The notes under the pieces were generated by a model, which saw nothing but the letters and a program-made list of their open reading frames with translations, was not told the origin of the DNA and searched no databases. From Pontiellaceae bacterium B12219 (lineage in GTDB: Bacteria; Verrucomicrobiota; Kiritimatiellia; Kiritimatiellales; Pontiellaceae): a DNA stretch of 64,000 nt. Positions within the stretch are counted from its first letter, which is position 1. The number at the start of each line of letters is the position of its first letter. The position numbers were made by a program, and so were the translations under genes. The DNA is taken from assembly GCA_029432795.1 (NCBI GenBank), contig JARNMJ010000021.1:1-64000 (forward strand), written 5' to 3'. This document shows, in pieces, positions 59,292-62,405 of the stretch.

Positions 59292-60488
59292 TTACTGATT
59301 CTTGGCTTTCCACTCGGCGAGCTGCATCACATCTTTATCTCCGCGACCGGATACATTGACGATAATTACGTCATCTTTAGTAAATTGATCCGCATTTTTC
59401 ACGGTCCAGGCAATGGCATGAGAACTTTCCAATGCCGGGAGAATACCTTCCCACTGCGACAGTTTATCGAATCCTTCAACGGCTTCCGTATCGGTTACAT
59501 AGGAATATTCCGCCCGCCCCAGATCCCGCAGCAGACTGTGTTCCGGCCCAACGGCGGCATAGTCCAATCCCGCACTGATCGAATGTGTCAGCGCAATCTG
59601 CCCGTCATCGTCCTGCAGCACATAGGTTTTTGTGCCCTGAAGAATGCCGATTTTATCCTCCGCAAAGCGCGCAGCATGCATGCCGCCCTCAACGCCGAAA
59701 CCGCCGGCTTCCACCCCGATCATCCGAACGCCGTCATCTTTAATGAACGGATGAAACAGACCGATTGCATTGCTTCCGCCGCCGACACAGGCGATGATGG
59801 CATTGGGCAGCCGCCCTTCCGCCTTTAGAATCTGCTTGCGCGCCTCAACCCCGATCACGCTCTGGAAGTCGCGAACCATCATAGGATACGGGTGTGCACC
59901 CAGTGCAGAACCCAGGATGTAGTGCGTGGTTCGAATATTGGTAACCCAGTCGCGCATGGCTTCGTTCACCGCCTCCTTGAGCGTCTGCTGCCCGACTGTA
60001 ACCGGAACCACTTTTGCACCCAGACTTTCCATCCGGAATACGTTCAGCGACTGCCGTTCCATATCCACCGCCCCCATATACACAATGCATTCCAGGCCGA
60101 ACATCGCACAGACCGTCGCCGTGGCCACGCCGTGCTGCCCTGCTCCGGTTTCAGCAATAATGCGTTTTTTACCCATGCGTTTGGCCAAAAGAATCTGACC
60201 CATGGAATTATTAATCTTGTGCGCGCCCGTGTGGCACAGGTCTTCACGCTTCAGATAAATCTTTGCCGTACCCAGCTTTTCGCTCATCCGTTCCGCAAAA
60301 TAGAGCGGCGTCGGACGGCCCACATATTCGCGCAGATAATACTGCAGCTCTTTTTTGAACTCCGGATCCTTACGGACTTCCTTATAAACACGGGTCAATT
60401 CATTCAACGGTTCCATCAGTGTTTCCGGCACAAACATGCCGCCGTAAGCACCGAAATGGCCATGACTGTCAGGTTGAGTAGGTTTCAT
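59292..60488 (-). CDS. trpB: Tryptophan synthase beta subunit
   Basis: TrpB condenses indole with L-serine to make tryptophan, using pyridoxal phosphate. The 398-residue protein has the PLP lysine in HTGAHKINN (Lys91), the phosphate loop [10 protein letters not shown], and [10 protein letters not shown] of the TrpB1 class that pairs with TrpA. No trpA is in the window; the next gene downstream is the pilus locus. A terminator-like hairpin sits in its leader. The start ATG at 60488 follows AGAGGA. Confidence 0.97.
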
Positions 60489-60539: not shown

Positions 60540-60600
60540 GCCAATTCAAGGCCCTTTTCTCTTTTCAAGGCCCGTAAATACCATTCCCCGGAATCCGGAT

Positions 60601-60640
60601 AACAAATAAGTTCACGATCGTGAACTTATTTGTTATTTAT
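60601..60640. promoter_or_regulatory. 34-bp perfect palindrome, copy 1 (upstream of the PaaX-like gene)
   Basis: Positions 60601-60634 are a perfect inverted repeat with core GTTCACGATCGTGAAC flanked by AACAAATAA and TTATTTGTT. With six further bases it is identical to 61462-61501. It lies six bases before the ATG at 60646, where an autorepressor would bind. Confidence 0.75.
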
Positions 60641-60645
60641 TTTCC

Positions 60646-61470
60646 ATGAAATGGCAACAGTTTCACCACCCGGACTGGTCGCTTCCCGTTGTGAAAAGAC
60701 GGTTGAGCGAAGAGTGGATTGATGTGATGAAGGATGTGGGCGATATCCTGCTCACCAACGGCCGATCTCTCACATGGAATCACTCCTACCCCAGCCGGAC
60801 GGCATTCAACATGGCGATGTCCAGATTGCGAAAACAGGGATTGATGGTTCAATACACAGATGAAGTCCATCTGCCCAGGCTCAAACTGACAAACGAAGGC
60901 CTCAACAGCCTCCCGATTTACCATACGCCCCACAAGCGCTGGGATTCGAAATGGAACGGCATCTGGTACCTGCTCATTTTTGATGTGCCGGAATCCGAGC
61001 GCCCCTACCGGGACAACCTTCGCCGATTTCTGAAGAAACTGAATATGGGCTGCCTCCAAAAGAGTGTTTGGATCACACCGCGCGATATCCGCCCGGAATA
61101 CGATGATCTGGATCAGGCTGCGAATGTTCATGCCGTCTCCTACCTGCTGGAATCCCGGACAGTTCTGCATCGGGAAACTTCGGAAATTGTGGAGTCCGCC
61201 TGGAATTTTGACCGCCTGCATGAATTGCACGACCGATATGTACGCATCTACCGGAATAACCTGAATGCACTCCGCGCCGCACAGCACGAAACCACCGAAC
61301 TTATGGAATTACTTTATCAGGAAGCCGAAGCCTATATCCAATGCATGCATCAGGATCCCCTTCTTCCCAGCACCCTGCTGCCGGAAACATATCAGGGGAA
61401 ACAGGTCTTTGCCCTGCATACCCGCTTCCGAAAGGCTCTGGCAGAAGCACTGCTCGCCGACAACAAATAA
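60646..61470 (+). CDS. PaaX-like transcriptional regulator
   Basis: This 274-residue protein has the three-part PaaX layout: an N-terminal winged helix (SRTAFNMAMSRLRKQGLMVQY, residues about 45-65), a central Cas2-like ferredoxin fold starting WDSKWNGIWYLLIFDVPESERPYRDNLRRFLKKLNMGCLQKSVWI (in pieces), and the PaaX_C-type tail (QDPLLPSTLLPETYQGKQVFALHTRF). PaaX represses phenylacetate catabolism in E. coli, but no such genes are here and the ligand is unknown. The gene is bracketed by identical palindromes, one before its start and one covering its last codons and stop. It runs against the surrounding trp genes. Confidence 0.85.
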   Translation: MKWQQFHHPDWSLPVVKRRLSEEWIDVMKDVGDILLTNGRSLTWNHSYPSRTAFNMAMSRLRKQGLMVQYTDEVHLPRLKLTNEGLNSLPIYHTPHKRWDSKWNGIWYLLIFDVPESERPYRDNLRRFLKKLNMGCLQKSVWITPRDIRPEYDDLDQAANVHAVSYLLESRTVLHRETSEIVESAWNFDRLHELHDRYVRIYRNNLNALRAAQHETTELMELLYQEAEAYIQCMHQDPLLPSTLLPETYQGKQVFALHTRFRKALAEALLADNK

Positions 61471-61501
61471 GTTCACGATCGTGAACTTATTTGTTATTTA
61501 T
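61462..61501. repeat. 34-bp perfect palindrome, copy 2 (end of the PaaX-like gene)
   Basis: This 40-base stretch is identical to 60601-60640. It encodes the last two PaaX codons and the TAA (61468-61470), and its far edge overlaps the gluQ stop (61494-61496). It could be an operator, a bidirectional terminator or a duplication scar. Confidence 0.75.
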
Positions 61502-62405
61502 CGAACAGCAGTAGTGCCTCCGAGCAGGTTAAAGATTGCTCGGTTTCGGTCAATCCTCCGAGAAAGGCGGCTTTACCGATAAGCTCTGACGCAGAGGCGC
61601 CCTGCTCACGGAGTTGTGTAATACTTTCCGACCGCTGGCGTTTGCTGAGTTTATTTCCGGTGGAATCCAAAATAAGTGGATGGTGAAAATAACCCGGAAC
61701 CGGAGCTTCCAGCGTTTTGAAAAGCTGGATCTGCCGGGCGGTGCTGAAAAGAATGTCCTCTCCGCGAATCACGAGATCAACACCATGTCGAATATCGTCG
61801 CAAACGCAGGCAAATTGATAGGTCCACTGTCCGTTGCGGTCGCGCAGCGAAAAATCGCCGCATTGGAGGCGCGGGTTCTGCCGCTGTTCCCCCAGTTTCA
61901 AATCCTGAAAAACAGTTTCACCTTCCAGAGTTCGGAAACGAACGGTGTTGCCCTCTAGCGGCAGTCCCTTTTCAGAGCAGGTTCCGGAGTAGCACAATTC
62001 TCGAGAGATACCCTCTTCGGCGTCCGCAGACCGTGAGGACACGGTCCCTCCAGACATTACCTGCTGAATTTCTTTCCGGCTGCACGTACACCCATAGACC
62101 AAACCGCGTTTTTCCAGCGTTTGGAGAACAGCTTGATAATGATTCGTGCAATCGCTTTGCCGAAAGTCGGAGGAGCCTGTTGCCGATGCAATGCTCATTC
62201 CAAGGTCTGGAACAAAGCCGAGCCATTCCATGGTTTCCAGAATGGCGGATTCATATTCCGGACGGGCACGGGAAAGGTCGTGATCCTCGATCCGGCAGAG
62301 GACGTTGGAGCCCATTTTCCGGGCCATACCCCAGACATAGAGCATGTGCAACACATGACCGAGATGAAGGTAACCGGTCAGGCTGGGCGCAAACCGCGTA
62401 ATCAT
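61494..62405 (-). CDS. gluQ: Glutamyl-Q tRNA(Asp) synthetase
   Basis: This is a truncated glutamyl-tRNA-synthetase paralogue that attaches glutamate to queuosine in tRNA-Asp. The 303-residue protein has the HIGH-like GYLHLGH (residues 11-17), a zinc site suggested by CTCSRKEI and CYSGTC, and the KMSKS counterpart NKLSKRQRS. It lacks the anticodon-binding domain, as GluQRS does. Between the two zinc halves an insert (SGGTVSSRSADAEEG) is encoded by a TGGAGGG-type repeat. Three 15-bp palindromes (one exact, two near) are also in the gene. It overlaps trpF (TAATG). Confidence 0.9.
   Translation of the reverse strand: MITRFAPSLTGYLHLGHVLHMLYVWGMARKMGSNVLCRIEDHDLSRARPEYESAILETMEWLGFVPDLGMSIASATGSSDFRQSDCTNHYQAVLQTLEKRGLVYGCTCSRKEIQQVMSGGTVSSRSADAEEGISRELCYSGTCSEKGLPLEGNTVRFRTLEGETVFQDLKLGEQRQNPRLQCGDFSLRDRNGQWTYQFACVCDDIRHGVDLVIRGEDILFSTARQIQLFKTLEAPVPGYFHHPLILDSTGNKLSKRQRSESITQLREQGASASELIGKAAFLGGLTETEQSLTCSEALLLFDK
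62020..62053. repeat. TGGAGGG-type element, copy 3, inside gluQ
   Basis: On the minus strand CTGGAGGGACCGTGTCCTC-ACGGTCTGCGG matches the left end of the elements at 3367 and 47888. It contains a self-pairing ACCGTG/CACGGT-type core. It is read in frame as SGGTVSSRSAD. Confidence 0.6.
62198..62212. repeat. 15-bp palindrome, exact, inside gluQ
   Basis: TTCCAAGGTCTGGAA; the coding strand reads V-P-D-L-G-M. Near-copies in the same gene are at 61707-61721 and 62112-62126. Confidence 0.8.

Follow-up and report, generated by a model that had tools for sequence, protein, structure and literature searches.

Cognate palindromes at the ends of a PaaX- and Cas2-related gene, and their dispersed copies, in Pontiella relatives and other bacteria

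Introduction

To our knowledge, bacterial palindromes that are dispersed in a genome and kept by a cognate protein are well known only from REPs and their RAYT proteins. The hallmarks of a RAYT gene are two flanking REPs, coevolution with them, evolution at a faster rate than that of the neighbouring genes, and a correlation with the abundance of the cognate REP (Nunvar et al. 2010, PMC2817692). Two further kinds of protein are relevant to what follows: the PaaX repressors (TIGR02277), whose genes stand in a context of aromatic degradation, and the Cas2 and VapD proteins, which are built on a ferredoxin-like domain with an aspartate in its first strand. The gene described here, from a Pontiella relative (Kiritimatiellota), has points of likeness to all three and differs from each.

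The locus and its palindromes

The window, a stretch of 64,000 nucleotides, comes from a 4.75-Mb genome (G000). The features that concern us are:

59292..60488, minus strand: trpB, the left neighbour, which adjoins gluQ in relatives with an empty site
60599..60636, no strand: left palindrome, 38 bp, perfect, zero loop, centre CGATCG
60601..60640, no strand: direct repeat copy 1, 40 bp, identical to copy 2
60646..61470, plus strand: gene of 274 amino acids, with a winged-helix-like N-terminus, the PaaX_M Cas2-like domain and PaaX_C
60982..60984, plus strand: codon of D113, the Cas2-type aspartate of an FDVPE motif
61462..61495, no strand: right palindrome, 34 bp, perfect, zero loop, centre CGATCG
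61462..61501, no strand: direct repeat copy 2, which holds the gene's last codons and stop as well as the gluQ stop
61494..62405, minus strand: gluQ, its stop codon inside the right palindrome

The preliminary description of this DNA had reported identical 40-bp repeats at 60601-60640 and 61462-61501. Their identity is confirmed, and the match extends to 43 bp with one mismatch. It is also correct that copy 2 contains the end of the gene (stop at 61468-61470) together with the gluQ stop (61494-61496, minus strand), and that the gene lies on the strand opposite to trpB, gluQ and trpF. The perfect 34-bp palindrome ascribed to the repeat is an accurate account of the right copy, the left one being longer at 38 bp, and copy 1 ends five bases, rather than six, before the ATG at 60646.

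A search of G000 with the 34-mer, allowing at most three mismatches, finds four places in the 4.75 Mb; the reversed control finds none. The two extra copies are solo, that is, without a gene: one (C222:8004) is identical and the other (C11:31216) differs by two symmetrical changes that preserve pairing. A chance origin of the palindrome is rejected by this control (0 against 4) and by the end palindromes of homologous genes, which lie far above control windows. As RNA, the palindrome would form a strong hairpin (z -8.5), and a side role in transcription termination is possible; an intrinsic terminator is rejected as the full explanation, since it accounts neither for the link to the protein nor for the copy at the 5' end. 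A known RNA family is likewise rejected (a chance match of 26 bits against a gathering score of 100), as is a phage origin, for which viral contigs, phage records and PHROGs were searched and gave no match.

Recurrence of end palindromes in homologous genes

Homologs of the gene occur in 19 of 58 relatives, with up to nine in one genome. When both gene ends were scanned with a criterion of at least 14 of 22 pairs, palindromes were found at both ends in 38 of 45 homologous loci (14-22 pairs); nearly all control windows give 10-13 of 22 pairs, with a maximum of 15. The end palindromes measure about 44 bp (range 40-48), have no loop, and are nearly always centred on CGATCG or CGGCCG. Of the other seven loci, three are truncated by the end of a contig, one has a weak copy on the right, one is devoid of palindromes and two hold broken genes. 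Three loci, L066, L067 and L068, hold broken gene copies (frameshift, fragment, in-frame stop); L068 keeps both end palindromes, and only the left one was found at L066 and L067.

Eleven control loci from E. coli and Actinobacteria, picked by annotation or by their match to PaaX-family regulators, yield 11-16 pairs, a background-like value. Bracketing by palindromes extends to distant homologs (23-44% identity) in Verrucomicrobia, Spartobacteria, Lentisphaerae, Omnitrophota and Patescibacteria, among them small forms of 159-205 amino acids that are devoid of PaaX_C.

The protein

In the window protein, Pfam recognises PaaX_M (the Cas2-like domain, PF20803) at residues 101-182 (3e-23) and PaaX_C (PF08223) at residues 186-267. 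The N-terminal PaaX domain, PF07848, is not matched; E. coli PaaX matches all three Pfam domains. The score against the PaaX equivalog model TIGR02277, 59.7 bits, is below the cut-off of 264.55. The earlier label "PaaX-like" is apt in that PaaX_M and PaaX_C are present, and misleading in that the protein scores far below the PaaX threshold and retains an aspartate of Cas2 type. Its predicted structure (pLDDT 83.7, with the N-terminal part modelled less surely) has E. coli PaaX as its closest fold (PDB 8a39; TM 0.60, E 1e-8) and Rv0674 as the next, and Cas2 proteins match its middle domain. Cas2 sequence models match weakly over residues 107-144, under their cut-offs (17.7 of 24.5 for TIGR01573 and 15.8 of 23.8 for PF09827); a small patescibacterial relative, L233, scores above the Cas2 cut-off. 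No Y1/HUH or other known transposase domain or motif was matched in Pfam or NCBIfam by the window protein or its homologs.

D113 is the last residue of beta-1, the first strand of the Cas2-like domain (residues 107-113), and is invariant in 56 palindrome-linked homologs. The FDVPE-type aspartate motif is absent from E. coli PaaX, and in true PaaX regulators other residues replace the aspartate at 10 of the 10 loci with a readable motif. Cas2 can act structurally in CRISPR adaptation, and for this reason an aspartate of Cas2 type is no proof of nuclease activity. The equivalent residue is the proposed catalytic aspartate of Cas2 and VapD (PMC10491678).

Empty and filled trpB/gluQ sites

The preliminary description proposed searching relatives for a trp region that lacks the cassette. 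Five were found (G004, G010, G015, G017 and G018); trpB and gluQ are adjacent in them, and the gene and the palindromes are missing together. In nine genomes, the window's included, the site is filled by the gene with its two palindromes, and for most of them the last codons or the stop of gluQ come from the right palindrome. The gene has no paa genes beside it, and the interval between trpB and gluQ contains neither cas1 nor a CRISPR array. The gluQ ortholog at one locus (L240, G001:C150) has an in-frame TAG shortly before its palindrome-encoded C-terminus.

The site is filled in G003 and empty in G017, its sister by host genes, and either state may be the ancestral one. Identity of the gene to its relatives is 57-68%, compared with 88-97% for trpB, which is to say that the gene evolves faster than its neighbours. 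Host-gene trees place G000 beside G001 (93/93), and the gene tree places it beside G021 and G023 (93/93). This disagreement, at moderate tree support, suggests that the gene was replaced at a fixed locus in G000. Gene copies within one genome are diverged paralogs, many of which keep their place between species. One host locus is occupied in three species (L015, L055 and L056) by proteins that do not group as sisters in the tree, a hint that one element was replaced by another at a fixed place.

Dispersed solo copies

Solo palindromes were found by pattern searches and by a covariance model built from the end palindromes; the counts are lower bounds. The covariance model finds palindromes in 16 of the 19 genomes with the gene and in 5 of the 39 without it (p 2e-7). 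The gene went undetected in G034, G012, G037, G031 and G053, mostly draft assemblies, all of which have palindromes; in them it is either absent from the assembly or lost. Among the three gene-bearing genomes with no palindrome above threshold, G024 and G027 hold lower-scoring ones. A deep search of G005 yields about 52 solo sites, to which the pattern search added more of the family matching the window's; this counterpart family has about 17 solos in G005, against two of the window's family in G000. The solos group into families, several of which coexist in one genome, and 42 of 55 G005 solos are matched best by a G005 element. A patescibacterial genome of about 0.8 Mb has roughly a dozen sites.

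Statistics of gene context were taken from G005, the gene calls of G000 being unreliable. Element ends included, 78 of 83 G005 palindromes lie between genes. Their spacers divide into convergent, tandem and divergent as 13:45:20 (n=78), with a background of 29:137:51 (n=217), and there is no promoter bias; in tandem spacers, 27 of 34 palindromes are nearer to the upstream stop codon than to the downstream start (p 8e-4). The G005 solos are near-perfectly symmetrical (mean 20.35 of 22 pairs; 26 of 69 perfect), and the positions flanking these 69 show no conserved bases. No target-site duplication is visible at solos, and no precise solo insertion junction was found between close strains.

Some individual arrangements deserve mention. 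The palindrome at L289:2886 (G024:C1:3241865) is exactly centred in another inverted repeat, cccgcgaata/tattcgcggg. Three cognate palindromes occur inside about 900 bp in G021 (L163:2352, 2909 and 3267), and two in G001:C154 (L286:2357 and 2983) stand 626 bp apart, each followed by nearly the same sequence, a local duplication.

Correspondence of palindromes with protein and with genome

Changes in the palindrome arms are paired: two-sided changes are seen in 17 of 18 pairs, with a covariation of 0.93 against 0.215 for shuffled sequence. Within an element, the palindromes at its two ends agree on average at 25.5 of 32 arm letters, compared with 11.6 for ends taken from different elements, and palindrome distance tracks protein distance (Mantel r 0.57, 0 of 5000 permutations). 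By association, the outer palindrome arms are, as far as such comparisons of sequence tell, specific to their own protein. The idea that the direct repeats arose by tandem duplication of one palindrome gains nothing from orientation, which is uninformative: upstream and downstream palindromes are more similar in direct orientation at 17 loci and in inverted orientation at 11, with 10 ties.

A palindrome at tatD is present in G000, G001 and G005. The site is half-decayed in both G024 and G027; it is decayed in G016, a genome that yielded no gene of the trpB/gluQ type, and the palindrome is absent from G002, G003, G008, G011, G021 and G023. Other solo sites are also orthologous between species, namely one at bcp (G000 and G005) and five more. 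The G000 palindromes at tatD and bcp have 10-13 of 48 letters in common with their G001 and G005 orthologs, versus 39-41 of 48 with other G000 copies. Copies in G005 are alike at 44-48 of 48 letters, and this includes positions at which the end palindromes of G005's own element differ from each other. Copies are few in G013 and G024, and there the similarity between orthologs equals or exceeds that among copies of one genome. Palindrome sequences at the orthologous sites of G000 and G005 follow the genome and not the site, and such within-genome homogenisation points to copying or conversion rather than to selection for binding alone.

Alternative explanations

The preliminary description offered two readings, a regulator cassette carrying its own operators and a mobile unit. 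The locus does behave as a single unit, with both palindromes recurring in homologs and neither at empty sites; neither reading fits fully. If the protein were a transcription factor of PaaX type and the palindromes its long operators, it would repress itself through the upstream copy and govern a regulon through the solos. The protein matches the known repressor PaaX in fold and domains, one palindrome directly precedes the start codon, and the solos at orthologous junctions (tatD, bcp) track the specificity of the local protein; conserved solo positions are what a regulon would show. We nevertheless consider it unlikely that the system is such a regulator. The second palindrome is at the 3' end of the gene in nearly all homologs, convergent spacers hold their share of sites (13 of 78, compared with 29 of 217 in the background), there is no bias to promoters, tandem sites are nearer to stops, copies are identical at positions where the two ends of the element differ, and true PaaX regulators have neither such palindromes nor the aspartate. 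A plain pair of operators for a local regulator is disfavoured by the many solo sites and by the near-invariance of the second palindrome.

It is improbable that the unit is an autonomous insertion sequence, in which a transposase would move the gene with both palindromes and the solos would be minimal non-autonomous copies or scars. Such an element would be compact and end at the palindromes, as this one does, and would leave empty sites that lack both; the broken copies L066-L068, the patchy distribution and the disagreement of host and gene trees for G000 would also fit. Its gene, however, is not multiplied: there are no recently duplicated copies, and the paralogs are diverged, and many of them keep to one locus. 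Target duplication is not seen, no known transposase domain is matched, and it is the palindrome alone that disperses. More improbable still is a system for organising the chromosome or marking self from non-self, in which the protein would bind dispersed palindromes as fixed landmarks and copy nothing. The persistence of sites at the same junctions and their location between genes would suit it, and unmarked DNA could be a target of the Cas2-like domain, but homogenised copies and a copy number that varies from two in G000 to about 17 in G005 suggest copying, and several palindrome families coexist in one genome.

Proposed mechanism

The sequences themselves show that the gene is bracketed, that this recurs across phyla, that palindrome and protein co-vary, that cognate solos exist and depend on the gene, that some sites are empty, and that copies are homogenised within genomes. 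The explanation that we favour as the probable one is a resident palindrome system that works in the manner of REP/RAYT around an unrelated protein, probably a DNA enzyme of Cas2 type. A dimer of the protein would bind the palindrome, and the Cas2-type aspartate would cut it, in a metal-dependent reaction, at the CG(AT/GC)CG centre or close by. Old palindromes would then be renewed and made symmetrical, and new sites sometimes seeded, either by repair that uses another copy or by copying of one arm through a hairpin; the near-perfect symmetry of the G005 solos would fit copying from arm to arm. The palindrome upstream of the start codon probably also serves self-regulation by the protein.

A more specific form of this proposal is put forward tentatively, at somewhat less than even expectation: that the protein represents a new DNA-mobilising class, in which an enzyme combining a Cas2 fold with a winged helix cuts zero-loop palindromes at their centre and rewrites or copies them at dispersed sites. 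The palindromes of a genome might then be converted, again and again, to the form preferred by its current protein, in PVC bacteria, Omnitrophota and Patescibacteria alike, an extension that we offer with the same reserve.

Comparison with known systems and significance

All four RAYT hallmarks of Nunvar et al. (2010) have counterparts here. As in REP/RAYT systems and REPINs, the gene lies between two cognate palindromes (here at 38 of 45 loci) and palindrome and protein coevolve; cognate copies are dispersed between genes and their presence tracks that of the gene; and there is one gene per family, largely vertical in its descent (PMC2817692, PMC8049555). In contrast with RAYTs, the protein combines a winged helix with a Cas2/PaaX fold and has no Y1/HUH transposase match, its palindromes are 40-48 bp long, have no loop and spread singly, and they have nothing beside them like the conserved tetranucleotide tag (GTAG/CGTC) of REPs. 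Because the Y1/HUH domain and the tag are lacking, the system falls outside REP/RAYT. With PaaX repressors the protein shares PaaX_M, PaaX_C and its best fold match; it differs in its score (59.7 against 264.55), the lack of PF07848, the retained aspartate, the palindromes at both ends and a setting between trpB and gluQ rather than among genes of aromatic degradation. On account of score, N-terminal domain and context it is not a PaaX. The Cas2-like ferredoxin domain, the beta-1 aspartate and an R..L...G..Q.SVW pattern are held in common with Cas2 and VapD, but here the domain is fused to a winged helix and mostly to PaaX_C, and the gene is tied to palindromes at its own ends, not, as Cas2 is, to a CRISPR array. 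With neither target duplications nor multiple near-identical gene copies, the element does not qualify as an insertion sequence. On this comparison, the system works like REP/RAYT and is probably of a separate kind, belonging to neither REP/RAYT nor PaaX.

No description of palindrome-bracketed PaaX/Cas2 genes was found in the searchable literature (a scope that leaves out preprints and subscription journals). Pontiella sulfatireligans is a cultured host, and the existence of such hosts makes the system testable. If the protein does cut and copy palindromes, it would be an enzyme of a new type, and REP-like repeats would have had an independent origin; it would also offer a clue to the roles of Cas2-like proteins outside CRISPR. 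In PVC bacteria and Patescibacteria, many genes that are annotated as PaaX regulators or as stray Cas2 may carry the wrong name.
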